A stretch of DNA of 64,000 nucleotides. It comes from Siderastrea radians (Eukaryota; Cnidaria; Anthozoa; Scleractinia; Rhizangiidae). Below the pieces are notes generated by a model, which made no database searches, had not been told where the DNA came from, and saw nothing but the letters and a program-made list of their open reading frames with translations. Location of the stretch: positions 33,372,641-33,436,640 of the forward strand of contig OZ024900.1 in the NCBI GenBank assembly GCA_964017195.1. Reading direction: 5' to 3'. Both the position numbers and the translations under genes were made by a program. This document shows, piece by piece, positions 2,425 through 59,881 of this stretch (its first letter is position 1; the number at the start of each line of letters is the position of its first letter).

Positions 2425-4073
2425 TCCTTCATCGAACACGATCAAAATGTGATTTTTATAAAAGCTGATAAACTGAGGTGAAAAGTTATATAATGAAGGC
2501 TCAACTTCTGAAAACACGTGAGAAAAAGCCAATAGACTTAAAAAGTGGGTGTTTGTGGACATAATGTGGGAGCATTGTGTTTACGTGATTGTACATCATT
2601 CTCTTAAAGCGGTATACGAAAACAATTCGCGTGTGCTTTGGTTTGACTTCCGGGTTGTGTTATTCTATGCAGTTTGATTGGTTACGAAGCCTGATTTTAC
2701 CTCTTCGTTAAAATTCAAACAAAAAACCTTTGGATCTGTGGGTCGCTAGCTGGTCATGGATGAGTCTTTGATGTGGACTACACTTCTTTCCTATGAAATT
2801 GTGTTCAACTTGCTTCTATGGAATAATTGTTAATTATCTTTTCTCTTCCTTTTCTTGTTTGGGCGGGCTGCAGGCTGAGGACTGGGTTGTAGGCTGCGGA
2901 CTACACGGCGTGACTTCCTCGCGCAATCGGGGCAGAGAATTGGATTCCTCGGTAAGGACTGGACCACTGGCTGTGGGACTTCACGAATAAGGATTCCATA
3001 CGGGCGCACGTCATCTTTGCTCGCTGGGGACAACCAATAATCAGCTCCTACTCCAGTTTGTGAAGCAGGAACGATTTCAAGGCGACCATTACGCCGATCA
3101 GGGTTGACACGATTCTGTAGCACAATCTTGAAAGTTTTTCCTTTGTGAGTGAATTCCTGTGCGTACAGCCTGTCGACCATTTCAAGACTGGGGCTTGTGT
3201 AGATACCTACACCAAACCTGGCTCTTGGACCAGCTTCATATCCGTCTTTTAAAATCATCTTAGCACTACTCATATTCGTACCATGATAAGAAACCGGCCG
3301 TTCACCAGGGGCTTCTGCCGTGCGTATGCCACTAGGGCCAAGCCAGTCGTCGTCTTCGTATCTTCCAGCAACTTTAATCGCGATTCTTTTCCATCCATAC
3401 GGTCGCTTGTACTCGAACCCTCCTCTCGTGTATGTTTTACCATCATCCTTGAGGTCAGTGAAATCGTAATCGTATTCGGGTTGAAGATCAGAAGTGTTAA
3501 ATCCGCACAACGGAAAGCCGCCACCTCTCAAACGAAGGACTGCACTGATAGTTTCTTCGGGTTGTATTCCATAGTCTTTCACAGTTCGATGACTTTCAAG
3601 TTGTTGACCATCATAAATCAGTCTTACCTGACCCAACGTCATACCTTCATGTCTTTCGACTGCAGCCTCTATATGTGAAATAGTGTTCTCTCCGGCTGTC
3701 ACCCGAATAGGTATAATTTTGCCCGTCAAGTTTCGTACTTTCAAATCAAACGTTTCAGCAGGGTCACCTGTCTCCACCGGTCTCATAACGTAGGTTCGGC
3801 TGAAAAGGTCATGCACAGAATACCTCCCTTCAGTCTTCACTGGAACAACCTCCGTACCAAGGATAGCTGAGAATCCTGCGCTTAATAGCTCCAAATTCGA
3901 CATTTTCAGGCTTGTGTTTGAGGTAAAATGTCCTCGTCATTTGCAGCAACATTTACATATTAAGTGTGGCACATCAATCACTTACTTTTTCCTGTTTTTC
4001 TGCGGTTTTTCATATTCTGTGAAAAGAGAAGAATGGCTTACATGCCGTCATTAATCCTCTTGAACGGCCTGTT
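2425..4073. repeat. Segmental duplication, copy A
   Basis: This block, containing the ubiquitin-ART gene and its flanks, is paralogous to 12176-13757 plus 17649-17697. Homology starts around 'gatttttataaaagctgataaa' in both copies and runs through the gene and its 5' flank to 'cattaatcctctt'. Copy A lacks the DIRS-like insertion, so it supplies the empty site (between 4016 and 4017). Confidence 0.85.
2830..3903 (-). CDS. Ubiquitin-like / predicted ADP-ribosyltransferase fusion protein
   Basis: Single-exon gene, ATG at 3903, 357 aa. Residues about 52-128 form a ubiquitin-like fold ending in LRLRGG (123-128), followed directly by GF. Counterparts of ubiquitin L8, I44 and V70 are kept and a K11 equivalent remains. 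K48 is Q, K63 is P, and the other chain-forming lysines look lost. Residues about 165-310 resemble a PARP/ART fold: YHGT (His207), GVGIYTSP (Tyr235), and DYWLSP before a final strand (Asp288), suggesting an H-Y-D/E triad. The tail has CPDC (324-327) and a basic KKRKRK stretch that could be a nuclear signal. Function is inferred: an ART-like enzyme carrying its own ubiquitin, perhaps released by a deubiquitinase or itself ADP-ribosylated. No signal peptide or membrane segment is visible. It lies in the 3' flank of CTHRC1-like copy 1, same strand. The ubiquitin assignment is firm; the ART assignment is moderate. Confidence 0.8.
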   Translation of the reverse strand: MSNLELLSAGFSAILGTEVVPVKTEGRYSVHDLFSRTYVMRPVETGDPAETFDLKVRNLTGKIIPIRVTAGENTISHIEAAVERHEGMTLGQVRLIYDGQQLESHRTVKDYGIQPEETISAVLRLRGGGFPLCGFNTSDLQPEYDYDFTDLKDDGKTYTRGGFEYKRPYGWKRIAIKVAGRYEDDDWLGPSGIRTAEAPGERPVSYHGTNMSSAKMILKDGYEAGPRARFGVGIYTSPSLEMVDRLYAQEFTHKGKTFKIVLQNRVNPDRRNGRLEIVPASQTGVGADYWLSPASKDDVRPYGILIREVPQPVVQSLPRNPILCPDCARKSRRVVRSLQPSPQPAARPNKKRKRKDN

Positions 4074-4885: not shown

Positions 4886-5031
4886 GAACTTTGCATTCTT
4901 ACCTACACGAGAACTGCTGCTCAGCTTTAGAAGAAATCAAGATTTGATTCACTTTATACCACCAAATTTGAATACACCATTGATTTTACCTTTCTCTCTA
5001 GTGCTAGTAGAACAATTTCATGAGTCACGTT

Positions 5032-5388
5032 TTAGGACTGGGGCCTAGCTACTTCCTCGATGATTATCCGGGACACTGAGGTCCATCCAGTGTGAGCATT
5101 GCCCAAGGTATGGCCACTGGGACACTGTCCTACCCATAACTCCACTGTCACCGCGCCCTGTGGGATGTTCTCACAGTAGCCCTCAAATGATCGGTGATGA
5201 AGCAGATTTGGAGTCGAAGATGGCCAGTCGCTGTACACAACAGCCTCAATTGTCATTGGTCCGCTGCATTCGTTACCATTGAACTTGAAATACCAGCGGT
5301 TACACTTCGTATCGCCCTGGGCTCTCGTGTTTCCTTGGAAAGAGACTTTGAGTGCTGTATCCGACTGCAGCTTGTTAAACGAGCAGTC
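5032..5388 (-). CDS. CTHRC1-like: CTHRC1-like copy 1, exon 3 (C-terminal domain)
   Basis: Last exon of an intact 282-aa secreted protein (exons 9094-9213, 5860-6231, 5032-5388; all phase 0). It begins after a CAG acceptor with DCSFNKLQSDTAL and ends IIIEEVARPQS-stop. The order of motifs matches the C-terminal domain of vertebrate CTHRC1: alternating Cys-Ser-Phe, a SFQGN-like strand, CNRWYF(K)FNG, NECSGPMTIEA, GYCENI, WVGQC, TGW(x)SVSRIIIEE. Five cysteines here plus one in exon 2 are the six typical of the family. Such domains trimerise short collagens in the extracellular matrix, and CTHRC1 is linked to Wnt signalling and matrix remodelling in vertebrates. The role in this animal is unknown. 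Confidence 0.88.
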   Translation of the reverse strand, partial: DCSFNKLQSDTALKVSFQGNTRAQGDTKCNRWYFKFNGNECSGPMTIEAVVYSDWPSSTPNLLHHRSFEGYCENIPQGAVTVELWVGQCPSGHTLGNAHTGWTSVSRIIIEEVARPQS

Positions 5389-5859
5389 CTGCGTGAACAG
5401 TAATTCATGCAAAACAGAGTCAGGTTGTGAGTCTCAGTGGGACTAAATAGCTTTAATGTTCGTCCTCAGTCAAGTAAAATAAGGATATTACATCGTGCAT
5501 CGAATTGATGAAGTTTTAACCGTGAATCGACAAATCTATTTTTCTTGCGTGGGTTTATCCATCAAAAGGTTGGGAATTAAACCTTCACCAGCAAAATGGT
5601 TTTTTTTTTGTACGGTTAACCTTGAAAGCAAAACATTTATGAACGATCAACTGTGAAAATTTCGGTTTTGGCTGACTCTTTCAAGAAACCTGCATAAAAG
5701 CCGTATTTTTAAACGGCATACTGTGTCTTAAATGAATTCTCTTTTTAAAACTTTGCTCTTAGATACGCAAATTCATTGAAGGCCCCTTTCTGCATATCTA
5801 ACTACGCAAGATAAGCAATCATAGTTTACACTTTTCATTTAGAATTTTTTGTCTGTTAC
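5389..5859 (-). other. Intron 2 of CTHRC1-like copy 1
   Basis: Intron of about 470 bp, with donor AAG|GTAACAG at 5859 and acceptor CAG|GAC at 5389. It is AT-rich and aligns with the same intron in the other copies. No additional feature is seen. Confidence 0.75.
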
Positions 5860-6231
5860 CTTAATCTTCCCACTATCTCTTGAGTCGCTTTGTTTCCACA
5901 CACATTGTTTCCAGTTGGTTTGTGGCACTGCGCTCGCCGGCCTTGCTTTTACACTTTCTCCTTTCTCTCCCTTGTCTCCTTTCTTTCCTTGAGCTCCCAC
6001 AATCCCCGGCTCTCCTTTAATTCCCATCATTCCTGGTGGCCCGCTCTTCCCGCGTGGTCCTTCGGGACCTCTCTCTCCTTTTGTACCCGGCATTCCTTGT
6101 GCTCCCTTGTCGCCAGTCTGTCCTTTAGCTCCATCCCTTCCCTGTGGACCTTGCGATCCGGGAACACCGGGCATTCCCGGCATGCCATTTGATCCTGGAA
6201 TGCCTGGAAAACCATGATCAATGATGGATTT
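5860..6231 (-). CDS. CTHRC1-like: CTHRC1-like copy 1, exon 2 (collagen region)
   Basis: 372 nt, 124 codons, phase 0 at both ends. It starts KSIIDHGFPGIPG after a TAG acceptor and encodes 29 uninterrupted Gly-X-Y triplets, more than double the roughly 12 of vertebrate CTHRC1. After the collagen stretch come NWKQCVWK, the start of the CTHRC1 C-terminal domain, and a GTAACAG donor. KGE, KGD and ERG charged triplets dominate the C-terminal half, as in stable short collagens. The frame is open throughout, unlike copies 2, 3 and 6. Confidence 0.88.
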
Positions 6232-6993
6232 CTAGGGCGAAAATAAGATTTTAACTAGTTATTGAAACGCTGATGCAATGATAGGCCAAAACGTAATTGT
6301 TTAATGAAATTCAGTTGTTTTAATGTTTATCTAATTAAGAAATCTGTCAAACATTCATTCTGTCACTCAACATTCAGTAATCCTCTGATTGTGGTGGGGG
6401 AAGGGATTTAAGTCTTTGGGAAGCAGAACATTAACAGGAGAGGGCGGAAAGCAGGTTTCCAATATGGTGGGTAACGGGATAAGCTTCCGTCTTGGCGTTC
6501 TTCCAGTTTAATATTTCGCAATACTAAGGGACCGCAAAGAGGTGGGTCAAACGCCAAATGGGTGCAACCCCCAAAATTCGCAATATAGCGCAATTTGAAG
6601 AGCGCCAATTACGAAGAAAGCCGCCAAGGACTCATTGAGCGGTTAGTAAAAGATGCAGAAGTGGGAAGTTTAGACCTCAAGCACCCCCAATCCATCTAAA
6701 GAAGAAATGTTTATACCACACGAGAACCGAATTATCCCTCCCTACTGTTCTTTATTGTCCTATAAATAAATCTTGTGAACGACCTAAACAAAATTCTGTC
6801 GTCAACACGACTGAGATCGCTGTGTCAGCTGAGATAATCTTCTAAACCGTGTCTGTCGATCGCGGGAAGGCAGACTGGTTCTAGATTGTAAAATCTGTTG
6901 AAAGGATTTCAACGTAATAGCAAGCACTGCCGCACTGAGGAAAGTTCGAGAGGCAACCATCGATTCAGTATATGTCATATCATTACATAACCT

Positions 6994-12175: not shown

Positions 12176-13757
12176 GCTTCTCCATTGAACAAGATGAAAA
12201 TGTGATTTTTATAAAAGCTGATAAAATGAGGTGGAAAATTAAGCATTGAGGGCTAAATTCTGAAAACACTCGAGAAAACTTCAATAGACTTAAACTGGGT
12301 GCTTGTGGAGATAATGTGGGAGCATTGTGTTTTGGTGATTCTACATCATTCTCTTAAAGCGATATACGAAAACAATTCGCGTGCGCTTTGGTTTTACTTC
12401 CGGGTTGCGTTATTCTATGCTCTTTGATTGTTTACGAAGCCCGAACTTAAGACATTTTTTATTACCTCTTCGTTTATTTTAAACAAGAAAAAAGAACTTT
12501 TTAATTTGATCTGTAGGTCGCTAGCTGGTCATGGATGAGTCTTTGAACTTATTTGCAACTTGTTTCTATGGAATAACTCTTAATTATCTTTCCTCTTCCT
12601 CTTCTTTTTTGGATGGGCTGAAGGCTGAGGATTGGATTGTAGGCTGCGGACTACACGGCAATTCGCACAACGAATTCGCTTCCTCCTTATGGACCGGACC
12701 ACTGGCTGTGGGACTTCACGGATAAGGATTCCCTACGGGTGCACGTCATCTTTGCTTGCTGGGGGCAACCAATAATCAGCTCCTACTCCAGTTTGTGAAG
12801 CAGGAACGATTTCAAGGCGACCATTACGCCGATCAGGATTGACGCGATTCTGCAGAACAATCTTGAAAGTTTTTCCTTTGTGAGTGAATTCCTGTGCGTA
12901 CAGCCTGTCGACCATTTCAAGACCGGGGCTTGTATAAATGCCTTTACCAAATCTCGCTCTTGGACCAGCTTAAAATCCGTCTAAAATTATCTTAGCACTG
13001 CTCATATTCGTACCATGATAAGAAACTGGCCATTTTACCAGGGGCTTCTGCCGTACGTATGCCATTGGGGCCAAGCCAGTTGTCCTCTTCGTATCTTCCA
13101 GCAACTCTTATCGCAATTCTTCTCCATCCATACGGTCGCTTATACTCGAACCCTCCTCTCCTGTATGTTTTACCATCATCCTTGACATAAGTGAAATCGT
13201 AATCGTACTCGGGGTGAAGATCAGAAGTGTTAAATCCGCACAACGGAAAGCCGCCACCTCTCAAACGAAGGACTGCACGGATAGTTTCTTCGGGTTGTAT
13301 TCCATAGTCTTTCACAGTTCGATGACTTTCAAGTTGTTGACCATCATAAATCAGTCTTATCTGACCAAACTGCATACCTTCATGTCTTTCGACTGCAGCC
13401 TCTATATGTGAAGTAGTGTTCTCTCCGGCTGTCACCCGAATAGCTATAATTTTGCCCGTCAAAAGTAGTACTTTCACATCAAACGTTTCACCAGGGTCAC
13501 CTGTCTCCACTGGTCTCATAACGTAGGTTCGGCTGAAAAGGTCATGCACAGAATACCTCCCTCCAGTCTTCACTGGAACAACCTCCGTACCAGGGATAGC
13601 TGAGAATCCTGCGTTTAATAGCTCCAAATTCGACATTTTCAGGCTTGTGTTTGAGGTAAAATGTCCTCGTCATTTGCAGCAACAACTTAACATTTACATG
13701 TTAAGTGTGACACATAAATCACTTACTTTTTCCTGTTGTTCTGCGGTTTTTCATGTT
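12176..13757. repeat. Segmental duplication, copy B (left part)
   Basis: Paralogue of 2425-4016, interrupted at 13757 by the DIRS-like element and resuming at 17649-17697. It carries the broken ubiquitin-ART copy. Confidence 0.85.
12580..13636 (-). pseudogene. Ubiquitin-like / ART fusion, broken paralogue
   Basis: Second copy of the gene at 2830-3903, with ATG kept at 13636. The ubiquitin-like domain and its LRLRGG end are intact. Reading then fails: a 1-nt insertion near 13033-13036 destroys the YHGT motif frame, a stop replaces a Glu codon at 12970-12972, and another stop replaces the Tyr codon at 12733-12735. There is also an in-frame 3-nt loss near 12981. If expressed, it would give a ubiquitin-like domain with a short tail and no ART-like domain. 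The lesions are spread along the gene, so a single sequencing error is not the explanation. Its upstream region is interrupted by a retrotransposon 121 bp from the ATG. Confidence 0.85.
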
Positions 13758-13900: not shown

Positions 13901-14944
13901 TTAACAACCTAAACTACGAGAAACGGATAACAGAGAATCAAGTTTGTCTTTGACATAGCCGTCCTTAGCGCTGTCAGATTTCCATCTGCCGTGACGCTTA
14001 AATAAGCGATCGCTGATACCGGCATTAGCAGCAGCAGATGCACCTCCAGCCCTAAGACTATGCAAGCCAAACATACTCTTAGGATAACCTAACTCAGCAA
14101 AAGCATGCAAAACAATCTCTCTAGTCCTAGTGTAGCTCATACCCTCAGAACGTAACTTATAAGAACAATTGGATTTTTGATAATACAGGGCACGGAAAAA
14201 GGGTAACGTAGAAGACAGTTGCAGACCAGCGGAGCAAACATATCTTTCCAGCAAATCAAAAGGACAGGATATAGAACCCGTCTTGGCTAATAAGACTCTG
14301 GAACCATCCCTGTACTGATCTGTCTTACTCTTGACTATAGTAATCTCGACAAAGGTGTTATCGCAAAATTTAACATCACAGCAACGCAAAGCAGCTAATT
14401 CATTAAAGCGGAGAAATGCAGCATAAGCGGTAACACAAATAGCAGCTAAACGCAAATCTGAAAGGCTGGCGGAAGGGCCTGCAAATTTGATACACAATTC
14501 GTTAATCATAACAGGAGTAACAGGCTCTTTTTTAGAAACGGGTTTTGCCAACTTCCTCTTCCCAGCTTCCAGAATATTTTTAACTAAACTTGAATTACAA
14601 GGGGTGGGAAACCCGTACAAATTGTGCGCCCAACTAATGCCGTAACAGGCAGACTCTAAAGCAGAAATTGAACAATTACTTTGGAGCAAAAATTCCAAAT
14701 ATAAAGCAACTGAAATGTCATCTGATGGTAAAGGAGTAATCTCACGATGACAGGAAGCCCATTCTCTGAACTTCTGAAAAGCCCTTGAATACCGCTCTGT
14801 GGTAGAAGAAGCTTTGGCCTCAACCGCACGGGCAGGCAGGCATGATGCTAGTCTCCGAAGTTCGGGGTCAAGAGGACGACCAACTTTGTCTGCAAATGCA
14901 TTTCCACCATGTAAACAAAAAACAAAGGAAGAAAATAAACACAT
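13901..14944 (-). CDS. Tyrosine recombinase of the DIRS/Ngaro-like element
   Basis: 347 aa, ATG at 14944, uninterrupted. An N-terminal SAM-like region (about 40-125) is followed by the catalytic domain, with the full set of YR residues in place: Arg179 (AFLRFNEL), a Lys near 207 (SKTDQYRDG), His295 and Arg298 (HSLRAGGAS), His318 (RHGRWKSD) and the nucleophile Tyr330 (GYVKD). The enzyme would integrate a circular DNA copy of the retroelement. It remains apparently functional although the RT of the same element is not, so it could still act in trans. Assignment to a YR retroelement rather than a Crypton rests on the adjacent RT-RNase H and gag ORFs. Confidence 0.9.
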   Translation of the reverse strand: MCLFSSFVFCLHGGNAFADKVGRPLDPELRRLASCLPARAVEAKASSTTERYSRAFQKFREWASCHREITPLPSDDISVALYLEFLLQSNCSISALESACYGISWAHNLYGFPTPCNSSLVKNILEAGKRKLAKPVSKKEPVTPVMINELCIKFAGPSASLSDLRLAAICVTAYAAFLRFNELAALRCCDVKFCDNTFVEITIVKSKTDQYRDGSRVLLAKTGSISCPFDLLERYVCSAGLQLSSTLPFFRALYYQKSNCSYKLRSEGMSYTRTREIVLHAFAELGYPKSMFGLHSLRAGGASAAANAGISDRLFKRHGRWKSDSAKDGYVKDKLDSLLSVSRSLGC

Positions 14945-15062
14945 AAATACTCCAAAATGTGTGAAATGGCCGTGTGAAACGGCGGTGTGAATAGCTGCAC
15001 ACCAACAAAAGGCCAGTGCCTATATAGCATCATAGAAGGCCAGTGCCTTCTAGCCAAACCGA

Positions 15063-15983
15063 TCACAGAGCTCCATCGAGCAAGAGAAAAAGCACCGGTG
15101 TGCTAAAATTCTCCGATCCAAAAATAGCATTCTTATTGGACCCATGTAAGAACACATCTTTGCCGTTCTCAACGAAGAGGTAATCGATAACAAATAAATT
15201 AAAGGACCCTTGAGAATCTACCAGAAGAGGCCAAAAAGGTGCGGATGGCCAATAAGGAATGACTAATATACCTTTGCATTTGCAAAGGCAAACATGGCGA
15301 ATGACTCTGGTCACCAGTGTGACAGGAGGGACTAACCAGCAAAACTCGCCAGCCCAGCTGAAAGCAAATGAATCCACGCCTAGGCAATACGGATTGTAAA
15401 ATCGAGAATAGAACCTAGGAACTTTGCAATTTTTGGAACTAGCGAAACAATCAACTGAGCACTGTCCCCAGTAGGACGTAAGTGCGTAAAAATAGCAATC
15501 CTTAACTTTCCAGTCGTCGCAATCAACGATTTTGCTAAGATAATCCGCTTTATCGTTGAGGGAACGAGGAATCCATTCGACGTCTAAGTCGATATTATAA
15601 TCCCTGGTGACATAGAAAATATCCACAGATAATTTATGCAATTCTTCTTTCATGCTGCCCGAATCAACAATAATAGGGACTGCTTGATTATCAGTGAACC
15701 ATTTAACAGAACTATTAGACAAACGTAGTGCGAAACTTTGGAGGGCAAAATAAACACAATGAAGTTCCCTCCAAGTGGAGCTTTGACTCATTTCCAGTGG
15801 GTCCCAGTTCTTGTGTGCAACTGGAAAATCATCCATAGATAAATAGGCGGCACAGCCCAGAGAGCTAGCGTCTGAATACGCAATCCGAGTAACTGGGCGA
15901 ACATCCTCTGAAAGGGGCCTAGAATTAAGACGAAGTAAATTTTCCCGCCAGAAAATTAATTCCTTGCGAGATGGCAAATCCAA
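15063..15983 (-). CDS. RNase H domain, C-terminal part of DIRS-like pol
   Basis: Open frame of 306 codons without its own ATG; it is the downstream half of pol after an internal deletion. It starts in the connection region (RKELIFWRENLLRL), then RNase H with the four acidic positions visible: Asp38 (YSDAS), Glu73 (TWREL), Asp98 (FTDNQ) and Asp147 (DKADYLS). It degrades the RNA strand of RNA-DNA hybrids. The segment before it is missing: RT motif C (YxDD) and the thumb should lie between LPFG of the upstream frame and this point. The two frames differ, so a fused product cannot be read. Confidence 0.8.
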   Translation of the reverse strand: MDLPSRKELIFWRENLLRLNSRPLSEDVRPVTRIAYSDASSLGCAAYLSMDDFPVAHKNWDPLEMSQSSTWRELHCVYFALQSFALRLSNSSVKWFTDNQAVPIIVDSGSMKEELHKLSVDIFYVTRDYNIDLDVEWIPRSLNDKADYLSKIVDCDDWKVKDCYFYALTSYWGQCSVDCFASSKNCKVPRFYSRFYNPYCLGVDSFAFSWAGEFCWLVPPVTLVTRVIRHVCLCKCKGILVIPYWPSAPFWPLLVDSQGSFNLFVIDYLFVENGKDVFLHGSNKNAIFGSENFSTPVLFLLLDGAL

Positions 15984-17094
15984 AAGGCAAAACAGTGAAC
16001 TTAAAATATCTGGTTACCCCACTGAATGACCAAGAAAACCCCAAAAAATCTTGGTCGGGAGGAAAGATATCAATATGGTGATATCCCGATTTAATGTCAA
16101 ATGAATAGAACCAATTTTGGGAGTGGTCAATAAATGAATTGAGCATGGTTTTAGCGTCTTCAAACTTAATTGTGAATTTTTTAACAAAAGAATTAGAATA
16201 CCTGAGGTCTAATATTAGCCTCTTCTTGCCGTTAGACTGAATGGAAACAGACAAAGGGTTAATTACTGAAGGTGGAGACGAGCATTCCACAACAGAACCA
16301 ACAGCTAAAAGATCAGTAATTGCTTTGTGAACAAAATCCGCATGCTGCAAGGAAGACTTATTATTACCGAAGGTGGCAGGAGCAGGTGTAAAATAAAAAG
16401 GAATTTTGTAGCCTTCCAAAATGGTTTGGCGAATAAACCAAGAAGCGCCTATATACTCCCAGAAACTAATATTACGCCTTAATCTACCTTTAACGGCAAT
16501 GTTCTGCACGTCCTCTTGATAATCCGGACAAATTTCCGGAGAATCATGAAAATTAGGATCGCTAGTCGATTGGTAGAAAAAGTCAACTGGGTCACAATCG
16601 CCCAGAGAATTCACTGGAGATACAGGTAAAGGATACTCATCTTGTCCCAATCGTTTTAAGGCAGCATCGTATTTGTCCCTGGACCCATCATCCGTTTGTT
16701 GGTTTGGTGCTCGGTGGGTTTCGAGTGAGGTTGTTGCGACTGGGACAAACTGAGGAATTTGCCCAATGTCCGCGTTGGCCGCAGCTGAAACATTTGTCAG
16801 CGGGAACTGGTTGTCTTGCACGAAAGGACTGATGGCGAAAGGGCTGTTGAAGATTGAAAGAATGCTGAGCAGGAGCAGCCGAGAAAGAAGTTTGGGTTTC
16901 CGTTGCTGACTCACGCTGCGGAGCTCTGGGACGGGCAGGTTGAAATTTTCTTTTCTTTTCACGAATCTTCGACAGCGCCCTCTTCTCGGCTGAACGGAGC
17001 TTTTTCTCGTCTTCTGAATCGTCGGCGAGTTCGTCGGACTCATACTCTTCAACAGCAGTCCAACCTGCGGGGCTCTTGTCGGCGAAACGCACAA
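15925..17094 (-). pseudogene. Reverse transcriptase, truncated before YxDD
   Basis: Open frame of 389 codons. The first 130 or so overlap gag in another frame and are probably not translated this way. RT motifs are readable from about residue 205: KKRLILDLRYSN, motif A with catalytic Asp333 (FYSFDIKSGYHHID), and FTVLPFG at 366-372. In the related family LPFG is followed by about 100 residues including YLDD. Here the sequence jumps directly to the region just before RNase H and then stops. An internal deletion of several hundred bp, out of frame, explains this. The RT cannot be catalytic. Confidence 0.8.
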
Positions 17095-17521
17095 GTTTGT
17101 TGCGCTTATCGATGAGCTTCTTTGCTTCTTCGAGATCGGAAGTTGCAGAAGAGACTTTCCCTGCGCGAAGGTTCTTAGAGGCCGTCTCGATTTGGTCGAG
17201 GACGTTGAGATTAAACTCGAACTGTACTCTGTTACCTTTATAATTAAAGGTATTCGAAGCTTTCGTCTCAGTTTTCAGCTTCTTTAGCTGGCTCTGTGTA
17301 AGGATGTCTTTCTCTTCAAGTTCGCGCTTGAAAGAAGTGAACTTCTGATCAAGCTTAGAGTCTAACAGTTGTGAAAATAACCGAAGGGTTTCGGCATTAG
17401 ACAAGGAATCCTCATGTTCAAGAGGCGTAGTACTTTGGGAATCACGAGGAATATCGTGTTGTTCGGAATCGGACATCACTAAAAGCAAGTATAAAGAGAT
17501 GCCTTCGAATGGTTTCTGCAT
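16688..17521 (-). CDS. Gag-like protein of the DIRS/Ngaro-like element
   Basis: 277 codons from the ATG at 17521. The ATG at 17476 (MSDSEQHD) is the more usual-looking start. A charged N-terminal region with coiled-coil character (about 45-90) leads to an acidic then basic linker (about 160-200) and a zinc knuckle near the C-terminus, CFSCGQRGHWANSSVC (244-259), a CCHC variant. It overlaps the pol frame by about 400 nt. It should package the element RNA. No interruption is seen. Confidence 0.8.
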   Translation of the reverse strand: MQKPFEGISLYLLLVMSDSEQHDIPRDSQSTTPLEHEDSLSNAETLRLFSQLLDSKLDQKFTSFKRELEEKDILTQSQLKKLKTETKASNTFNYKGNRVQFEFNLNVLDQIETASKNLRAGKVSSATSDLEEAKKLIDKRNKLVRFADKSPAGWTAVEEYESDELADDSEDEKKLRSAEKRALSKIREKKRKFQPARPRAPQRESATETQTSFSAAPAQHSFNLQQPFRHQSFRARQPVPADKCFSCGQRGHWANSSVCPSRNNLTRNPPSTKPTNG

Positions 17522-21465: not shown

Positions 21466-21624
21466 TAATGAAATTTTCTTTCTTCCATGGACGTAAACTA
21501 CTCTTAATCTTTCACAATGCTTTAAACTATTACTAACAGCGTTTTGCCTTAAAGCGCTGTATCTAGGCATTTCGCAAAACGATCACTTTCTCTAGTGCAC
21601 GTAAACAGTTTCCAAAGTCATGTT

Positions 21625-21984
21625 TTAGGACTGAGGCCTAGCTACTTCTTCGATGATTATCCGGGACACTCCCATCCACCCAGTGTTCGCATGACCCAAG
21701 GTATTCCCACTCGGACACTGTCCTACCCATAACTCCACTCTAAGCGCGCCCTGTGGGATGTTCTCAAAGCAGCCCTCAAATAATCGGTGATGAAGCAGAT
21801 TGGGACTCCCGGATGACCAGCTGTTGTACACAATAGCCTCAACTGTCATTGGACCGCTGCATTCGTTACCATTGAACTTGAAAAACCAGCGGTTACACCG
21901 TGTGCCAGAGCCATAGACTCTCAACATTCCTTGGAAAGAGACTTTGAGTGCCGTATCAGACTGCAGCTTGTTAAAAGAGCAGTC
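21625..21984 (-). pseudogene. CTHRC1-like: CTHRC1-like copy 2, exon 3
   Basis: 360 nt, open from the CAG acceptor to a TAA stop, 119 codons. All five domain cysteines are kept in this exon. It differs from the others in SFQG-MLRVYGSGTRCNRWFF, where one residue is gained and KCN becomes RCN. By itself the exon looks coding, but exons 1 and 2 of this copy each carry a 1-nt indel, so it is called a pseudogene unless those indels are assembly errors. Confidence 0.7.
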
Positions 21985-22537
21985 CTGTACGAATAAGATA
22001 AAACAAAACGAAGTTAAGTTGAGATAGTATCAATGGGATTAACCGTCAAATGATCAGTTTAATGTTATTCTTAAAGTAATACATAAGGACATATTTTTCC
22101 CGCCAACTGTCAAAGAAGGGTAAAACAACGTTAACAGACCTCAAATTGGTGAAATTTTGATAGTTAACTGACCAATAAGGTTAATCATTTCCTGTCAACT
22201 GTGTAATTGGTTGGTATGAACGAGTTTTACCGTCAAAAGTCTGGATATTGGAAAGTGTCTCCGCCAAAGTGCTTTCTCTTTTATCGCCAAATATCTGACA
22301 TCTCTCATCAAGAATTTATGTTATCACTCAAGTCATAAAGAGTTATACTCAAGTCATAAAGCGTGATGAAAGATCAACAGATAGTCTTGGGTGAGGATAC
22401 AGTGGGTTAACGGTTTCGTTTTCTCTCAACGCTTTTAGATACACAAAGGAAACTAGAACTGTATTTCTGTCTATCGAAATAGGCACTTTTCGCAATCTTA
22501 GTACAAAGCTGTCATTTAGAGTTTGTTTTGCCATTAC
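21985..22537 (-). other. Intron 2 of CTHRC1-like copy 2
   Basis: 553-bp intron aligned with the same intron in other copies. The duplicated phrase 'actcaagtcataaag' near 22326-22360 is a short local repeat. Nothing else is seen. Confidence 0.65.
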
Positions 22538-22910
22538 TTTTATCTTGCCGTTGTCAGTTCCGTCGCTTTGTTTCCACACACATTGTTTCCAGTTGGTTTG
22601 TGGCACTGCACTAGACGGACTTGCTTTTACGCTTTCTCCTTTCTCTCCCTTGTCTCCTTTCTTTCCTTGAGCTCCCACAATTCCCGGCTCTCCTTTAATT
22701 CCCATCATTCCTGGTGGTCCGCTCTTCCCGCGAGGCCCCTCGGGACCTCTTTCCCCTTTTGTTCCCGACATTCCTTGTGCTCCCTTGTCACCAGTCTGTC
22801 CTTTAGCTCCTTCCCTTCCCTGTGGACCTTGCGAGCCCGGAACACCGGGCATACCCCGGCATGCCATTTGATCCTGGAATGCCTGGAAAACCATGACCAA
22901 TTATGGACTT
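22538..22910 (-). pseudogene. CTHRC1-like: CTHRC1-like copy 2, exon 2 (1-nt insertion)
   Basis: 373 nt instead of 372. The extra base lies in a G run near 22853-22857 (GCCGGGGTATGCC against GCCGGGAATGCC elsewhere), after the fourth Gly-X-Y triplet. Downstream the collagen frame is otherwise perfect through NWKQCVWK and the GTAATGG donor. One frameshift thus separates the exon start from 25 good triplets. Confidence 0.8.
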
Positions 22911-25037
22911 CTAGAAGGGAAATAAGATATTAATAGACAATGACATACTTAACCAGTGTGAAGATGAAACGTTGACCAATAAAATGGATTTCTACGATTA
23001 TCTAAGAACTCAGTTATCAAACATCCATTCTTCATGTAACAAACAGACGAGATGAAACTTAATCTGTTTCTATTTTTATAGTGGCTGTTTGTCACGTTTT
23101 TGCTTTCTATGTTTGTCTACCAATCATACTAAATCTTTTCATTTTTGTCCGCAATTTCAATCTTGTAACCGTTTAATTTCATTTTTACTCAGCTTTTTGC
23201 AGTCCCTGATCAAGGTGAGTTTTGTCTCACCAAAATATTGGGCAATAAAATTACCCTTTTTAGCTGTCCGATCAGCCTTGCAATTGGTTTTTTGTTTTAT
23301 TCAACATTGCTGATCCTGATCTACACCAAGATCCGGCTTCACCTCGCTGTTATTTGTCCAAGTGGTCTTTTCATCATTCAGGTCCGGGCTTAAAGATATC
23401 CACTTAAATAAAATGGAAAGATACCCCCATCAAAATCAACGCGTCGGGCACATAACCTGACGCTCCCCTTGCTAAGACTTTCACCGGCCGTCTTAAGTGT
23501 ATTCCACTTCTGCTATGGTTTCAAACACACTGTAACGTAACGTAAAGTAATGTAATGTATTCGTGGTAATCCCCTTTTTCTATATGCCTTCAACACTGAT
23601 TTTCATTTCCATTACACTTATGTGCCGTCAGAACATGTTTGGAAAATAAAACAATTCGGTTTTTTTTTTTGAAGTTTTCTTCATGGTTGCTGATGTCTCG
23701 ACCATTTGGATAATGCAGGATTTTTGACTTGTGGGTAGGGTGGTAATGAGAAAAAAGTTCACAGTTCTACGAAATATTTGTATACAAAAGAAACACCTGA
23801 AGAAGATGGGAAGCACCAGGGAAGGGAGGTGAGCCCGAAATAAAAGGTTGAGTAAAGGGGGTCTCAGGAAGTTAAGACCCCCTGCCCCCCCTCCCCTCTC
23901 ATCAGTTTGAATGACGTGGCTCAGTCACCGGATATAACTTTCAAGACCTTGCTCGTCTGCTTCAATTGGTTTAGAAATGAAAACATGGAAATGACATTTC
24001 TGGGAAGATATACCGATGAGAGAGTACATTGTGTTATTAGATGATGTTTTGAGAACAAATATGCTGGTTTTACGAGTTGTTTTCCTTCACAGCGCCACCA
24101 GACGTTTGTTTAGCGCCCCTCCCACCTCCCAACAGTGTCGACCCTGTGGTTTTTCGCTCCTTTCCCTTTTCGTCTCCGGGATCGCTTCATCCCATAACTT
24201 GTTAAAATACACAGTTCAGGGAGATTAAGCAGTAATACCAAGCATTTTAAGAAAGTTCGAGTAGAACCTACATATAATTTATAATCAATAATCGTTCTTT
24301 AGAAACAAAATACACAGTAATTACAAGTTGTTTTTGTGGCTTCCATTTTGTCTAGAAAATTTTCCAGAAAAAACTTTGTGTAAACTAACACCGTCTGATC
24401 TGTCCTGATTCTTTAGCTGAAAGCGACACAACATTTTAGTGGACGGAATCTATTTCTAGATCTCTGATTTGTCGAGTTTCCTTAAAATTTTGCTTGCCTT
24501 TAATTTTCTTTTTCGTGTCTCAACGCCATTTTTAACATTCAAAAGTTGAAGAAATCCATTTAGTTTACCCCACTTATTCAGCTGAATTTCTGGTAAAAAT
24601 CGGCCTCGGTTTTGGGAATTGTGGTACATGTATCTCAGAAAAGATGCTTGCAGGAAATGAAATGAGCTTGCAGGAAGCTCGAGATACAGTAATTGACTGA
24701 GAACTAACATAAAACAGGACGATATGACAGTATGGCTCGTACATAACGAGGGTCATTCCGATGCAGAGATTCCGAGATTCAAGAGAAATATTTCTAACTA
24801 GAGAAGCTCTAGCTTTTATCACAGATATCGAACGACTCGACCGCCCTCTTCAGATGATAAATATGTCCGCTGACTATACAGGAATACCAACCTACACACT
24901 TTGCATCAGTTAATGTTTGCGACATACATCAATTCATCACCAGCCCTTATATGTAAATTCAATTGCTCTTCGATGGGTAACCAACAAAAAATGTTTTCAG
25001 CTGTGTTTATACAAAACTCACATAGTACCGTACTGAC
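22911..25037 (-). other. Intron 1 of CTHRC1-like copy 2
   Basis: About 2.1 kb. No gene or bounded element is recognised. There is a short 'aacgtaacgtaaagtaatgtaatg' repeat near 23530 and a C-rich stretch near 23880. Confidence 0.5.
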
Positions 25038-26448: not shown

Positions 26449-29400
26449 TTAAAGAAAATTGGAATAAGCAATTCTGAATAAATGCGTTTTTAGCATGGCC
26501 TTGAAAGTAATTATATTAGTCTGGTCTCTTATCCCTTTTGGCAGTGCATTCCAGGTTTTGGGGGCAGATGCCCTGAACGATCTATCACCTAATGTGACTT
26601 TGTACCGACAAGTCGGATCATCAAGGATCAGTCCATTGGACGCTGACCGTAGAGAAAATCTATTGTTTCCCTTGATAGATAGTAGGTTACTTAAATACTG
26701 CGGTGTTTTAAAATGAATTGCCTTGAAAGTTAACAACCCTATTTTATACTGAATCCTATATTTAACTGGGAGCCAATGCAGTTTGAACAAAACCGGCGAT
26801 ATGTGATCGAATTTAGGCGTGAGAGTAATTAAGCGCGCTGCAGTATTCTGGAGACGTTGTAGCTTGGACAGATGTACAGCAGGCACGTTATACAGTAAAC
26901 CGTTACAGTAGTCAATTCGTGCCATAATTACTGCTTGCACAAGAATCTTAGCGCTATCCTGCGTAAGGTACTTGCGAATTTGTCTGATATTGTGCAGATG
27001 GTAGTATACAGACTGGCAGATCTTGTTGATATGAGTTGACATACTTAAGTTACGGTCAAACCAGGCTCCTAAATTACGTACAGCGGCAGTCTCCACTGAT
27101 AAATCTACATGTCCGACTTTGATATGGTCAAACTTGATCTTACTTAGTTGTGGCTTAGTGCCGATAAGGCTTATCTCTGTTTTATCTGAGTTCAACTTAA
27201 GCTTATCTAGTTTCATCCAGTTGCTGATGTTTGCGATGCACCTCTCCATTGCGCTGACTGCCTCCGCTTGGTCTGCCTCTGAATCTGCTTGGAATGATAG
27301 ATATAACTGCGTATCATCTGCATAGGCGTGTGCATCAGGTAGATGAGACTTGATGACTTCAAACAATTTGCTTGCATACACAGTGAACAGGAGGGGTCCT
27401 AAGCATGACCCCTGAGGCACGCCGTGGTGTAAGTCAAACGTCTTGGATATGCAGCCCTCATAGCAAATGCGCTGTGATCTTTGAGACAGGTACGATGAAA
27501 ACCAGCTTAACGCAGTTCCAGTTATCCCAAAGCTAGTCTCCAGTCTCCTTACTAACACCTGATGGTCCACCGTGTCGAAAGCGGCGCTAAGATCAAGAAG
27601 TACTAACAGCGTAACCCTCTTACGGTCCATGTTCAGCAAAATGTCATTCTGTACTTTAAGAAGTGCAGTCTCTGTGCTATGCCCAGCCCTATAAGCAGAT
27701 TGTAGTAAGGGGTATAGCTCATATTGCGACATGTGACTGTGGGTCTGATCGTAAACAGCACGCTCGGTTAGCTTTGAAATATACTGTAAGTTACTGACAG
27801 GGCGAAGGTTTGGGAATGATGTATCCTTTCCGGTTTTGAGGCGCGGATCCACAAGAGCATCCTTCCATTTTGATGGAAAATGTCCTAATGCAAGAGAAGA
27901 ATTCAGAATGTGTGTTATTACAGGTAAAAGTTCCTCTAAGCAGGCTACTACCATTGATGTCGGCATAGGATCAAGGCTACAAGTCTTTTTAGTAGACTTC
28001 TGTACCAGTGAGCGAACCTCGTCATACGAGAGTTGGCGGAAATCTTGAAGTTTTTTCTCGTCACCAACCACAGGATCCTCGGGTACCGTAGCTTTCTCCT
28101 CTTGAGTGATTGCAGAGGAATCTAACGTTGTTCTGATGTTGGGAATTTTGCGGCAGAAGAATTCACCTATATCATTAGCCAGAGATTGATGATCATCGTA
28201 ATCAGGAAACAACAAACACTGACTTGGGGCGAGGAGCTTTTTCATACTCCTAAACAGCTTTCCCTGATCTTCACTGTTGCTATCTATAAAATCCGAATAA
28301 AAAGCCTTCCGAGCTTTATTAATAATATGTGTCGCATGGTTCTTTTTCTTTTTAAAGATAGCAAAGTCAGATTTGAGTCCTGATCTCCGCCACACCCGCT
28401 CTGCTTTGCGGCGTTCTCTTTTGGCCTTAGCAATCTTTTCATCATACCAAGGAACTTGGGGCCTTGTTTTGATAACCTTTTCTTTGACTGGTGCGTGATG
28501 GTCAATCAGCCTCGACAGCGTAACCTGATAATCATCAACCAAATGATCGAGATCAGTAGCTTGGCGACAATGGGAATGATCTACACTGCACAGTCCAGAC
28601 GAAGCTAAGTCGTCACGAAGCTGGTCCGTGTCAACTAATCGTAGTTTCCTGTACGCAACCCTCTTGACTCTTGCGATCGGTCTTCGTATATTTAGATGAC
28701 ATATCACAGACGCATGGTCAGAGAAGAACCGGTCAATAGCAGGCGAGTTCTGAATTAGATGGCTTGTCTTGCGTGTGATAACAAGATCCAATGTGTGATT
28801 ATGAGTATGAGTGGGCTTATCCATGTGTTGCTGGAGACCGAGTGAATCGATCAAGTCCAGGAATTTTGTAGCATCTGGGTTATCAGGGACGTCGACGTGG
28901 ATATTGAAATCACCTACGATGGCCAAGTGCTCCTTAGAAAGAATAACTGATTCCATGTAACTGGAAAAGTCCCGAAAAAATGCGCTCATGGGTACCCTGT
29001 GGTTCTCTGAGTAGGGTTGTCGATACATGATGACCATTCTAAGATCGTGGCCAGCACCAGAAGAGACTACCCATTCAGAGTATTCTAGCGACTCAGTGTG
29101 TCCAGTTTGAGAGAAAGAGACTTTCAAAGAATCATTGAATAAGATTGCCGTCCCACCGCCGCGAGCGTGTTCACGAGGTTTGTCCAAAAATCTATATCCA
29201 TTTGGGCATAGCTGGGCTCTGAGAGAATCATCATTCGAAGTCAACCATGTCTCAGTGATAGCAACTAGATCAAATTTGTTTTCAGAGACATACTCCACAA
29301 AGTCCGCTGTCTTGTTTCTTATGGACTGGGTGTTCATTAATGCAAAGGAAATACAGCGAGGCCCCGGTGCAAGAATAGACATTTCCTTTCCCGTATTGAT

Positions 29401-30123
29401 GTTGATTAGATTAGACGACGTCCTACTGCCCCTGGTAGAACGATCAAGATCACCACAAATCCTACGGCCCATGATTGAATAATCACAATCGTAGCGTGAC
29501 GTGATCCGTACAGGTAGGTGTCGGCCATTGTTTTGATTCAACTTGGAGTTTGAGATATGCAAATTCGCATGACTTGAACATGAAGGCGAACAGTCAATAA
29601 AATTAGCAATATTTCGTTCTCTAATGCACGACTCTCTCCTCCTATCCTGTGAAATCCTTGTTGCTATGCTGTGTTGTTCCTCATACGTTGAAAGACATAG
29701 AATATCCGCTAACCAGGGCGGGTTAGCGAAGATGCCATTGCGTTTCAAGATAGCGATAGATTTCGAATCGATATCCAACTGCGATTTAAAGCAGACCACA
29801 GAGTTTCTAACTTCCAGCAGCTGAGCTCTAGAATAGGTCTGACGAATAATAGGGCCAGGATTAGGAGAAACATCGCAGCACAAAGCGAAGTAGGCAGCTA
29901 ATGGTACTCTTGAGTCGAACGGTAGAGTTAGAACTGAAATTCCGTGGCTTGATTGTAATAGCGCTGGAGTCTTGAGTAGAGCAGCACGACCAGAAGTCTT
30001 CGTTAATCTTGGCATACATTGTAAACTCAATTTTATAAACTGAGCATTTTCCTTTAAGAGAGCCCCATGTAATAAAACGAGGACAAAAAGGCGGAGGATA
30101 CAGCGAGTACGTCCAGCCGCCAT
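26449..30123 (-). CDS. L2-type LINE ORF: endonuclease and reverse transcriptase, with 2A-like motif
   Basis: 1224 codons from the ATG at 30123, no internal stop or frameshift. Near the N-terminus DVSPNPGP (residues 84-91) fits the 2A ribosome-skipping consensus core NPGP, with Asp at the expected place but Ser for the usual Glu. An APE-type endonuclease follows (about 258-480): MNTQSIRNK, ITETWL, GDFNIH near 404 and SDHASVI near 468. The RT (about 740-1000) has LLDLSAAFDTVDH, GVPQGSCLGP and AYADD (934-937). The C-terminal region ends in a conserved FRIAYSNFL-like tail. The protein would nick target DNA and copy its own RNA. Intactness suggests recent insertion. L2 is favoured over CR1/Rex by the trinucleotide tail. 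Confidence 0.88.
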   Translation of the reverse strand: MAAGRTRCILRLFVLVLLHGALLKENAQFIKLSLQCMPRLTKTSGRAALLKTPALLQSSHGISVLTLPFDSRVPLAAYFALCCDVSPNPGPIIRQTYSRAQLLEVRNSVVCFKSQLDIDSKSIAILKRNGIFANPPWLADILCLSTYEEQHSIATRISQDRRRESCIRERNIANFIDCSPSCSSHANLHISNSKLNQNNGRHLPVRITSRYDCDYSIMGRRICGDLDRSTRGSRTSSNLININTGKEMSILAPGPRCISFALMNTQSIRNKTADFVEYVSENKFDLVAITETWLTSNDDSLRAQLCPNGYRFLDKPREHARGGGTAILFNDSLKVSFSQTGHTESLEYSEWVVSSGAGHDLRMVIMYRQPYSENHRVPMSAFFRDFSSYMESVILSKEHLAIVGDFNIHVDVPDNPDATKFLDLIDSLGLQQHMDKPTHTHNHTLDLVITRKTSHLIQNSPAIDRFFSDHASVICHLNIRRPIARVKRVAYRKLRLVDTDQLRDDLASSGLCSVDHSHCRQATDLDHLVDDYQVTLSRLIDHHAPVKEKVIKTRPQVPWYDEKIAKAKRERRKAERVWRRSGLKSDFAIFKKKKNHATHIINKARKAFYSDFIDSNSEDQGKLFRSMKKLLAPSQCLLFPDYDDHQSLANDIGEFFCRKIPNIRTTLDSSAITQEEKATVPEDPVVGDEKKLQDFRQLSYDEVRSLVQKSTKKTCSLDPMPTSMVVACLEELLPVITHILNSSLALGHFPSKWKDALVDPRLKTGKDTSFPNLRPVSNLQYISKLTERAVYDQTHSHMSQYELYPLLQSAYRAGHSTETALLKVQNDILLNMDRKRVTLLVLLDLSAAFDTVDHQVLVRRLETSFGITGTALSWFSSYLSQRSQRICYEGCISKTFDLHHGVPQGSCLGPLLFTVYASKLFEVIKSHLPDAHAYADDTQLYLSFQADSEADQAEAVSAMERCIANISNWMKLDKLKLNSDKTEISLIGTKPQLSKIKFDHIKVGHVDLSVETAAVRNLGAWFDRNLSMSTHINKICQSVYYHLHNIRQIRKYLTQDSAKILVQAVIMARIDYCNGLLYNVPAVHLSKLQRLQNTAARLITLTPKFDHISPVLFKLHWLPVKYRIQYKIGLLTFKAIHFKTPQYLSNLLSIKGNNRFSLRSASNGLILDDPTCRYKVTLGDRSFRASAPKTWNALPKGIRDQTNIITFKAMLKTHLFRIAYSNFL
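29851..29874 (-). other. 2A-like DVSPNPGP codons
   Basis: Eight codons reading DVSPNPGP. In known 2A peptides the ribosome skips the bond between the last Gly and Pro, releasing an upstream peptide; here that would free about the first 90 residues. 2A-like sequences are documented in several APE-type non-LTR retrotransposons. Activity here is inferred; the Glu of the D-V/I-E-x-NPGP consensus is replaced by Ser. Confidence 0.6.
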
Positions 30124-30156
30124 TAATCCGTCAGTATTGTCATTTAAGGCACCCAA

Positions 30157-31149
30157 GAAGTACTAACCTGAAGAGAGGATTTACTAAAGATTGAGCTACA
30201 GCTCAAAGCAAATAAAACCGGAGCCAGTATGCTCTAAAAGGAGCGGTTTTCATTTCAAACGATGGAGGGCGCAGCTGGTATCAACGTCTTGTCAGAAGCG
30301 ACTTCAAATACCTTGGTTCTCGGAGCGCTTCCTCCAGCAATGATGTCAAAGCCAGCGAAACATTAGCTTGTCGCATATGAGTTCATATTTAATTCACTGG
30401 ACAGAGCCTCGTTAGCTAAGAATTTTAATACACCTCAATTTTTGCAATAGTTAACACAACTCACGATACGAGTTTGCGTTAAAGAATACAGGATAATCCA
30501 AGTAATTGCATCATGTCAAGAATACAAACAACGGACACAAATTAATAAAATGAAGCTGTATTTTGATACAAGCTTCACCATCATCAGACTAGAGATTGTT
30601 CTTTTTTTTGTTGTACTCAAACTGTCAGCGGGTACTGGGTTTTGGAGCTTGCGTTACTATTCATTTAATTCCAATTCACATTGCTTTTTTATTAAAACGA
30701 AAGAAAGGAACCGAACGAAGCCTGGCTTTTTTGCCAAATACACACCGACAATGACTTGACGTACGTATTTACACAAGTTTCGTGAGAATCAAAGGATCAA
30801 AGGAGATGTAAGGAGAACTAATGTGAGGAGAAAGAAATGTTTCAAATTGACACCAGTTAAAGCAAACTACCTGCCAACTGTTTTTCATCTCCGGATATGC
30901 ACGTGTTTAAAGAAACGTTTTTGTGGCTCACGATTTACTGCTCAGATACCACGCAGCTCTTAACAACCTCTAATTTCATTGGACCTATTTCTTGGATACA
31001 CGGTGTATTCTTCAATCTCCTTGTGATCTAGTACGTTATCCTTCGAAGCTGCAAGAGACAGACAAGTATTTCAAGTTTTCTGATCTTCTACTAATCTTTG
31101 ACTCATGTATACTCCATGTAGCCCTAACGGCTTTCATGAGAGTCACGAT
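30157..31149. other. Flank between the L2 element and CTHRC1-like copy 3
   Basis: No gene. 30165-30260 aligns with 18945-19035, 30440-30900 with about 11190-11600, and 30920-31120 with 57365-57525. The last match is normally far upstream of a CTHRC1-like gene, yet here it abuts exon 3 of copy 3 at about 31120. Confidence 0.6.
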
Positions 31150-31501
31150 TTAGGACTGAGGCCTAGATACTTCCTCGATGATTATTCGCGAAACTGACTC
31201 CCATCCAGTGTAAGCATCACCCAAGGTTTGGCCACTCGGACACTGTCCTACCCATAATTGCACTCTATCCGCGCCCTGTAGGATGTTCTCACAGTATCCC
31301 TCAAATGATCGGTGAAAGTGCAGATTGGTATTCCCAGATGACCAGTCGTTGTACACAAAAGCCTCAATTGTCATTGGTCCACTGCATTCGTTACCACTTG
31401 AAGTACCAGCGGTTACACTTTACGTCGCCAATGACTCTCATATTTCCCTGGAAAGAAACTTTGAGTGCTGTATCGGACTGCAGCTTGTTAAAAGAACAAT
31501 C
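31150..31501 (-). pseudogene. CTHRC1-like: CTHRC1-like copy 3, exon 3 (5-nt deletion)
   Basis: 352 nt instead of 357. Five nt are missing at about 31397 (plus strand 'cgttaccacttgaag' where other copies have 'cgttaccattgaacttgaag'), in the codons for FKFNG. This shifts the frame before NECSG. The 3' half is otherwise well kept to the TAA. The conserved 3' UTR and poly(A) signal of other copies are missing. Confidence 0.82.
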
Positions 31502-31882
31502 CTGCAAGAATGAAATCAAAGGAAAACAGAGTCAGATTGTAAGTCTTAATAGTGTTAACTGTCAGCTGGCTTTAATTTTAGTCGTGAAGCAAATTATATG
31601 GAGAAAGCTTTTTTACCGACAACCGTTAACGAAGGCTTTGTGAAGCAACAAAAGCAATTTTTTAAAAAGTTTATTCGTTAACTGACCAATAAGGCTAACC
31701 GACAAAAAAGTTAGTTAATACTGTCAACTTAAGTTGGATACGATGTACGTTTTCAGTATTGAAATGCCCTTTTATAAAGTGTTGTCTTTTTCTTGGCGTA
31801 TTTAGATGCACAAAGGAAGCTCGAACTTTCTTTTCGCAATTTTAGTATAAAGCTGTCATTCAAACTTTGGTTTTTCCATTAC
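31502..31882 (-). other. Intron 2 of CTHRC1-like copy 3
   Basis: 381-bp intron with CAG acceptor and GTAATGG donor. No other feature. Confidence 0.65.
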
Positions 31883-32253
31883 TTTTATCTTCCCGTTGTC
31901 AGTTCCGTCCTCTTTTTCCCACACACATTGTTTCCAGTTGGTTTGTGTCACTGCACTAGCCGGACTTGCTTTTACGCTTTCTCCTTTCTCTCCCTTGTCT
32001 CCTTTCTTACCTTGAGCTTCCACAATTCTCACTCTCCTTTAATTCCCATCATTCCTGGTGCCCCGCTCTTCCCGCGTGGCCCCTCGGGACCTCTCTCCCC
32101 TTTTGGTCCCGGCATTCCTTGTGCTCCTCTGTCACCAGTCTGTCCTTTAGCTCCATCCCTTCCGTGCGGACCTTGCCATCCCGGAACACCAGGCATTCCC
32201 GGCGTTCCATTTGATCCTGGAATGCCCGGAAAACCATGACCATTGATGGATTT
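31883..32253 (-). pseudogene. CTHRC1-like: CTHRC1-like copy 3, exon 2 (1-nt deletion)
   Basis: 371 nt instead of 372. One base is lost near 32023-32032 (plus 'acaattctcactctcc' for 'acaattcccggctctcc'), in the late Gly-X-Y repeats. The frame therefore breaks between the triple helix and NWKQCVW. It has also lost one helix Gly (plus 'ttccatccc' region differences) relative to copies 1 and 4. Confidence 0.75.
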
Positions 32254-41911: not shown

Positions 41912-42097
41912 TAACAAATGTTCTTTCTTAGACAGACGTAAATTACTGTCACTTTTAGAGGGGAATCAAGCGTGGAATCATTTGAATTCACAATGCTTAA
42001 AATTATTACAGCGTTTTACCTTAAAGAGTCCTATCTAGACATTTCGCAATGCTGTGACTTCCCTTGTACAAGTAGAACAGTTTTTGAGAGTCATGAT

Positions 42098-52213: not shown

Positions 52214-52404
52214 TAATGAAATTTTCTTACATTGATGTAAACTATAGCTACTGTTAATGTTAGAGGGGAATCAAACGTGGAATCATTTCAAAATGCTGAA
52301 AAAAATATTACAGCATTTTACCTTAAAGCGCTATATCTAAAGTAGACATTTCGCAATGCTGTGACTTCCCTTGTGCAAGTAAAACAGTTTTTGAGAGTCA
52401 CGAT

Positions 52405-54139: not shown

Positions 54140-54141
54140 CC

Positions 54142-59527: not shown

Positions 59528-59881
<354 letters not shown>

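Follow-up and report, generated by a model that had tools for sequence, protein, structure and literature searches.

The 64,000-nucleotide stretch of Siderastrea radians DNA that was analysed (the window; C14:33372641-33436640, in an assembly of 805 Mb and 439 contigs) carries a gene in which a ubiquitin-like domain (Ubl) is followed by a domain that, judged from its sequence, is a probable ADP-ribosyltransferase (ART). The same order of domains recurs in corals, anemones, a sponge, sea stars, rotifers, Glomeromycotina, Dictyostelium and a green alga. We tentatively read the protein as an NAD-using ART that would be docked through its divergent Ubl, a reading in which the fold of the ART half, its catalysis, the docking and the biological role are all put forward as predictions.

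The gene, its copies and its surroundings

The open reading frame (2830..3903, on the minus strand like all parts of the gene given below) encodes 357 amino acids from ATG to stop in a coding stretch without intron, and a whole-genome search recovered the same place. The original prediction of a Ubl and an ART within one intronless gene was borne out, as the frame of 357 codons is intact, the ubiquitin domain is significant and the domain behind it is ART-like. Five parts can be discerned within the protein. Conservation and the AlphaFold model define an N-terminal module (residues 1-52, 3748..3903), which is modelled as a helix (3-15), a strand (19-22) and a second helix (30-37), and which is conserved in a cnidarian-rich set of relatives and more weakly so in a diverse set. 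It is followed by the Ubl, which ends in LRLRGG (residues 53-128, 3520..3747) and was delimited by Pfam, a structure match to ubiquitin and residue comparison. A region with the pattern RGG..Y.RPYGW (residues 141-200, 3304..3483), recognized by its conservation, lies directly before the ART-like catalytic core (residues 201-309, 2977..3303), for which Pfam, profile matches and the AlphaFold model provide the evidence. The protein ends with a basic tail, RPNKKRKRKDN (residues 347-357, 2833..2865), that looks nuclear-localisation-like by eye and may function as such; a similar tail occurs in the broken copy described below and in one intact paralogue out of three.

Besides the window gene, the genome contains at least three copies that look intact, with identities of 73, 68 and 67%, the gene-copy counts being lower bounds; a stop that was reported for the 68% copy lies where its coding stretch ends. 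Another copy within the window (12583..13636, minus strand) is broken by a frame change near residue 202 and by two further stops, and shares 87% DNA identity with the window gene across 1.6 kb. A pseudogene reading of the window frame itself was rejected, since that frame is intact and the broken copy is the one at 12583-13636. At residue 202 (window 3298-3300) the window protein has an Arg, and P0002, which is 97% identical to it, has a Trp. Because all 149 aligned homologues (149/149) have Trp at this position, the window copy may be weakened by the change.

The gene lies amid a tandem array of a two-piece gene that is repeated six times (4995-6254, 21589-22933, 31132-32257, 42060-43299, 52367-54962 and 59496-60712), the other copies being 82-89% identical in DNA to the first. 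Of three pieces tested, Pfam recognized a CTHRC1 C-terminal domain in one (5032-5412) and collagen repeats in two (22349-22900 and 54568-55122). The reading frames behind the broken Ubl-ART copy (13901-17521) resemble by eye a tyrosine-recombinase (DIRS-like) retroelement; of the three frames tested, one matched reverse transcriptase weakly, another matched Dam methyltransferase weakly and the third had no match, neither of the two matches reaching its cut-off. Long reading frames at 26449-30156 and 38075-41500 contain endonuclease-type and reverse transcriptase domains, as is typical of non-LTR retrotransposons, and a strongly repetitive frame at 48782-49630 lies in a stretch with a marked negative GC skew. 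Elsewhere in the same genome, PARP catalytic domains are clustered (G000:C3:48378802-48525242); by eye they resemble those of PARP10-15.

Evidence for an ART-like domain

The Pfam PARP model (PF00644) matched residues 200-239 of the window protein weakly (E 0.24, 11.3 bits versus a cut-off of 26.7); the protein thus falls below the threshold for a PARP proper and was filed in the ART superfamily. Among 59 family members, 33 matched this model at E<=1, with a best value of 3.5e-6, and seven out of ten chosen relatives reached its cut-off, one of them exactly and nine of the ten having been chosen for a pre-listed PARP match. In some of these ten relatives the PARP-matching stretch was also matched by the DUF3990, ART-PolyVal, Tpt1 and exotoxin A catalytic models, and ART-PolyVal was above its cut-off in one of the ten. 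Apart from ubiquitin-type, PARP and ART-PolyVal models, the Pfam scan of the ten returned nothing above cut-off.

When a profile built from twelve diverse ART regions was searched against the PDB at E<=10, 48 rows were obtained, of which 41 were PARPs (PARP1, 3, 10, 13, 15 and 16, many of the rows being PARP1 constructs), four were Tpt1, one was named only Exotoxin and two were unrelated; all these matches are weak (best E 0.0046) and their score is uncalibrated against a shuffled profile. A narrower coral profile yielded three rows at E<=1, one Tpt1 and two unrelated proteins that scored better or similarly. In an hhalign profile comparison with eight PARPs from this genome, the whole region reached 73% and the core 83%, and each of the two controls, the Ubl and reversed rows, reached 0.2%. 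The match is confined to the His and Tyr motifs; taken by itself, the C-terminal half yielded 0.8%, and a forced global alignment gave 11% with the C-terminal motif misplaced. In PHROGs at E<=0.1, the ART region of the window protein matched no family, P0203 matched one weakly and P0208 matched four. With PARP or Tpt1 in 45 of the 48 PDB rows, and with the Pfam and hhalign results given above, the predicted ART assignment held up at the level of sequence, and the C-terminal part of the window protein is probably an ADP-ribosyltransferase.

The Tpt1 matches could indicate a Tpt1-like ART that targets RNA or a nucleotide instead of a protein. These matches are weak: the Tpt1/KptA model (PF01885) hit two of the ten relatives with 16.8 and 14.6 bits versus a cut-off of 26, it was absent from the Pfam matches of the window protein at E<=1, and Tpt1 accounts for 4/48 and 1/3 of the rows in the two PDB searches. 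Considering that the PARP rows outscore and outnumber those of Tpt1 (41/48), and that the presence of a Ubl would point to protein partners, we hold an RNA or nucleotide target to be very unlikely.

Predicted catalytic residues and modelled fold

The motifs and the residue numbering of the original prediction are correct: His207 lies in YHGT, Tyr235 in GIY and Asp288 in ADYW. In a diverse alignment of 150 rows, which includes the window protein, the position of His207 (codon 3283..3285) is a His in 149 rows, that of Tyr235 (3199..3201) a Tyr in 149 rows and that of Asp288 (3040..3042) an Asp or Glu in 132 rows; the three positions do not vary freely. At the third position there are 72 Glu and 60 Asp, the remaining 18 rows having Lys, Gln, Pro, Ala, Leu, Val, Ser or a gap, with Pro in all three named sea-star proteins of the alignment. 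Taken as full sets, His-Tyr-Glu occurs in 72 rows, His-Tyr-Asp in 58 and another combination in 20. A set of 98 relatives showed His in 95, Tyr in 98, Asp in 94 and Glu in four. Position 247 is aromatic in 149/149 homologues and lies 11 or 12 residues past Tyr235 in 143/148 rows, a spacing that we take to resemble that of Tyr896 and Tyr907 in PARP1. Altogether, the family shares with the PARP/ARTD catalytic domain (PF00644) the HG[ST] and G.GIY motifs, the second aromatic residue and, in the model, an ART-like order of strands, but differs from it by the RPYGW region before the core and by a third motif that reads [DE]YW.

The AlphaFold model that was used, built from the 150-row alignment, has a mean pLDDT of 85.4 and a pTM of 0.78 over its full length (an earlier model from 59 rows had a pLDDT of 73.3). 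Its ART half starts with the strand of His207, and continues with a helix, a poor loop (221-227, pLDDT <50), the strand of Tyr235, another helix, the strands 249-253 and 256-266, and then further strands, an order that is compatible with an ART core. In PARP1 the third catalytic residue is a Glu with which the penultimate strand begins; in the model of the coral protein, a strand begins at residue 289, just past Asp288, and is followed by the last strand. Within the proposed His207-Tyr235-Asp288 triad, His and Tyr are supported by their conservation and by profile matches; Asp288 was placed by the model and not by profile alignments, which stop short of this residue or fail there. On the model, Asp288 is the presumed third catalytic residue, and would be the equivalent of the PARP glutamate. 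Full-length fold searches (Foldseek with the first model, VIA-align and a viral library; 50 rows listed each) returned ubiquitin-type proteins or spurious full-length overlaps. PARP folds were absent among these listed rows, which is uninformative on the ART half, because the ubiquitin part filled the lists.

A family with this set of residues could still consist of inactive scaffolds, or of sensors of ADP-ribose or NAD, joined to a Ubl. Such a role would be PARP13-like, PARP13 being inactive, and the best single PDB row of the diverse profile was the zinc finger CCCH-type antiviral protein 1, which we take to be PARP13; moreover, the set of His, Tyr and an acidic residue is incomplete in 20 of the 150 members, and the window protein deviates at position 202. 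Against this, the His, the Tyr and the second aromatic residue are nearly invariant among distant eukaryotes, and we regard a generally inactive domain as unlikely. For the active ART that we tentatively favour, NAD would be held between His207 and the aromatic pair Tyr235 and Tyr247, with Asp288 as the third residue (Glu in 72 of the 150 aligned members).

Distribution of the family and constancy of the fusion

Using region 135-357 as a query, 497 proteins were found at E<=0.001; a nine-row profile gave 409 proteins and a distant member as query 771, both at E<=1. The best 120 matches of each search were inspected, and most rows were nameless. Given the 497 homologues and the purifying selection described below, a chance reading frame was rejected. 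Among the best 120 of the 497, the relatives listed with a name were the stony corals Porites, Acropora, Montipora, Orbicella and Oculina, and one sea anemone. Over all matches listed, the named animals included corals, an anemone, the sponge Halichondria, the sea stars Asterias and Patiria, Rotaria rotifers and Daphnia; the Glomeromycotina were represented by Rhizophagus, Glomus, Acaulospora, Gigaspora, Funneliformis and Paraglomus, and the others by Dictyostelium, the green alga Bryopsis and one unplaced eukaryote. A viral or bacterial origin was also considered: two scans with strict peptide patterns, from which distant relatives could escape, confirmed no relatives in viral contigs, and the same holds for two such scans of bacterial and archaeal genomes.

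The ART profile was detected in 314/314 distinct listed proteins and the Ubl profile in 271/314, counts that lean towards detection as both profiles were built from 150 of the same rows. The Ubl precedes the ART in all 271 listed proteins that have both, and the gap between the two has a median of about four residues in proteins with one of each. Among the relatives listed with a length of at least 280 amino acids the Ubl was present in 241 out of 244, the only exceptions being P0001, P0029 and P0194; the search with homologue profiles that the original prediction had proposed thus revealed a near-constant fusion. A one-off fusion or an assembly artefact was rejected on the same count. For the shorter listed proteins (<280 amino acids) the Ubl was found in 30/70, a number in which fragments and true losses are indistinguishable; a Daphnia protein of 278 amino acids has no Ubl that is visible by eye. 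Many family members measure 300-350 amino acids, and other architectures may be missed because the limits that the search set on length favour proteins similar in size to the window protein. In the Pfam scan of 59 members, no family dedicated to the Ubl-ART architecture occurred among the 25 of 31 families listed.

Properties and evolution of the ubiquitin-like domain

The Pfam ubiquitin model (PF00240) matched residues 54-126 with an E of 1.2e-15 and 57.4 bits versus a cut-off of 25.4, and both this score and its beta-grasp fold place the domain among the ubiquitin-like domains. It is 43% identical to the ubiquitin of the same genome. In an alignment with that ubiquitin, the hydrophobic patch, which had been described as kept, indeed retains L8, I44 and V70, but H68 is replaced by Ser. 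The predicted loss of most chain-forming lysines was confirmed, with only K11 kept out of seven, K48 being Gln and K63 Pro. R42 and LRLRGG are present in the Ubl of the window protein, and LRLRGG is followed by a Gly. A constant C-terminal RLRGG, as would mark a conjugatable or processed ubiquitin, is not a property of the family: the window protein has the motif, and within the 150-row alignment the tail has GG in 108 rows and exactly RLRGG in 36. An equivalent of R42 is found in 78/150 aligned rows, and in the coral's own paralogues the tail is RLSGG, RLVGG or RLRGG.

Comparison of the four intact paralogues in six pairs gave a dN/dS of 0.14-0.27 for the ART and of 0.22-1.06 for the Ubl, the value for the Ubl exceeding that for the ART in 6/6 pairs. 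The ART part is under purifying selection between the paralogues. The top value for the Ubl derives from one pair with around 52 synonymous sites and is no test of positive selection, and the dS of one Ubl pair is saturated (2.48). The Ubl had a median pairwise identity of 0.37 in the 59-row set and of 0.32 in the 150-row set. The corresponding medians were 0.72 and 0.51 for the ART, and 0.68 and 0.53 for the RPYGW region.

A ubiquitin-fusion precursor would show the Gly-flanked LRLRGG of the window protein, the GG of 108/150 and the RLRGG of 36/150 rows, and it would also suit the Ubl that is nearest to ubiquitin (P0300 of Rhizophagus clarus, 80% identical). A deubiquitinase would then cut after the GG, setting the Ubl free and leaving an active ART, in the manner of ubiquitin-ribosomal protein fusions. 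The tail is changed in most members, however, including the RLSGG and RLVGG paralogues of the same genome, and the Ubl changes fast, unlike conjugated ubiquitin. With fusions of the UBA52 and RPS27A type the family shares a ubiquitin fold that directly adjoins another domain, but the coral Ubl is divergent (43%), around 50 residues lie ahead of it and the tail of the family is variable. The release by a deubiquitinase, or the use as a modifier, that had been suggested originally is thus unsupported as a general rule (RLRGG in 36/150, and a Ubl that evolves faster than the ART), and we judge a precursor of this kind to be improbable. Conjugation would be expected to keep a ubiquitin almost unchanged, and this Ubl changes fast; a docking role therefore seems likelier than conjugation.

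The Ubl might also be a substrate or template. SidE effectors ADP-ribosylate ubiquitin, and Dtx3L/Parp9 reportedly does so as well; by analogy, the ART might modify ubiquitin or its own Ubl, for instance at the arginine that matches R42, which the window protein shares with 78/150 rows, or at the C-terminal glycine. Dtx3L/Parp9 and SidE likewise tie ADP-ribosylation to ubiquitin, but act on a separate ubiquitin and are not known to contain a fused Ubl-ART of the coral kind. Given that R42 and the tail vary across the family, we consider modification of ubiquitin or of the Ubl itself decidedly improbable.

Possible role and relation to known systems

The docking that we tentatively favour would make the family one of widespread, patchily listed eukaryotic ARTs with a divergent Ubl tethered to the catalytic domain. 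The Ubl would be a docking module for a partner from the ubiquitin system, and neither a cleaved nor a conjugated modifier, and the enzyme would attach ADP-ribose to a protein in the vicinity of components of the ubiquitin system. The copying of the gene, the broken copy and the fast change of the Ubl are suggestive of a role in stress or immunity, which is a guess. A bolder version of this would be an old, undescribed class of eukaryotic enzymes, in which Ubl and ART are joined across animals, fungi, amoebozoans and algae and write ADP-ribose onto the ubiquitin system (ubiquitin, E2/E3 enzymes or ubiquitinated targets), as a single-chain counterpart of Dtx3L/Parp9 and a fast-changing immune or stress effector; we think this rather unlikely.

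The cross-talk of ubiquitin with ADP-ribose is under active study, and to our knowledge the links known so far involve separate enzymes or bacterial effectors. Combinations of PARPs with domains of the ubiquitin system have been reported: the accessible parts of Perina 2014 (PMC4245714) report that two PARP4-like proteins of Acanthamoeba contain ubiquitin-related domains and that other PARPs contain E2-like, UBA and U-box domains, and those of Citarelli 2010 describe ubiquitin-system domains in PARPs, the term 'ubiquitin-like' occurring there only in the reference list. According to the same parts of PMC4245714, the Acanthamoeba proteins are similar in having a PARP and a ubiquitin-related domain in one protein, but they are clade 5 vault PARPs of one amoeba, versus a small three-part family here. 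The accessible parts of Perina 2014 (PMC4245714) and Citarelli 2010 contain no description of the Ubl-ART family, and none was found in the literature searched, although a description in print is possible, with many subscription papers lying outside the search. As far as the literature searched shows, we rate an ART with a near-constant Ubl partner as uncharacterised.

The family may thus physically link two major protein-tagging systems in a little-studied group of enzymes. A small protein that combines both systems and recurs in eukaryotes would serve as a simple tool for the study of ubiquitin-ADP-ribose cross-talk, and with several copies in the coral genome it would provide a candidate gene family for work on coral stress and immunity.
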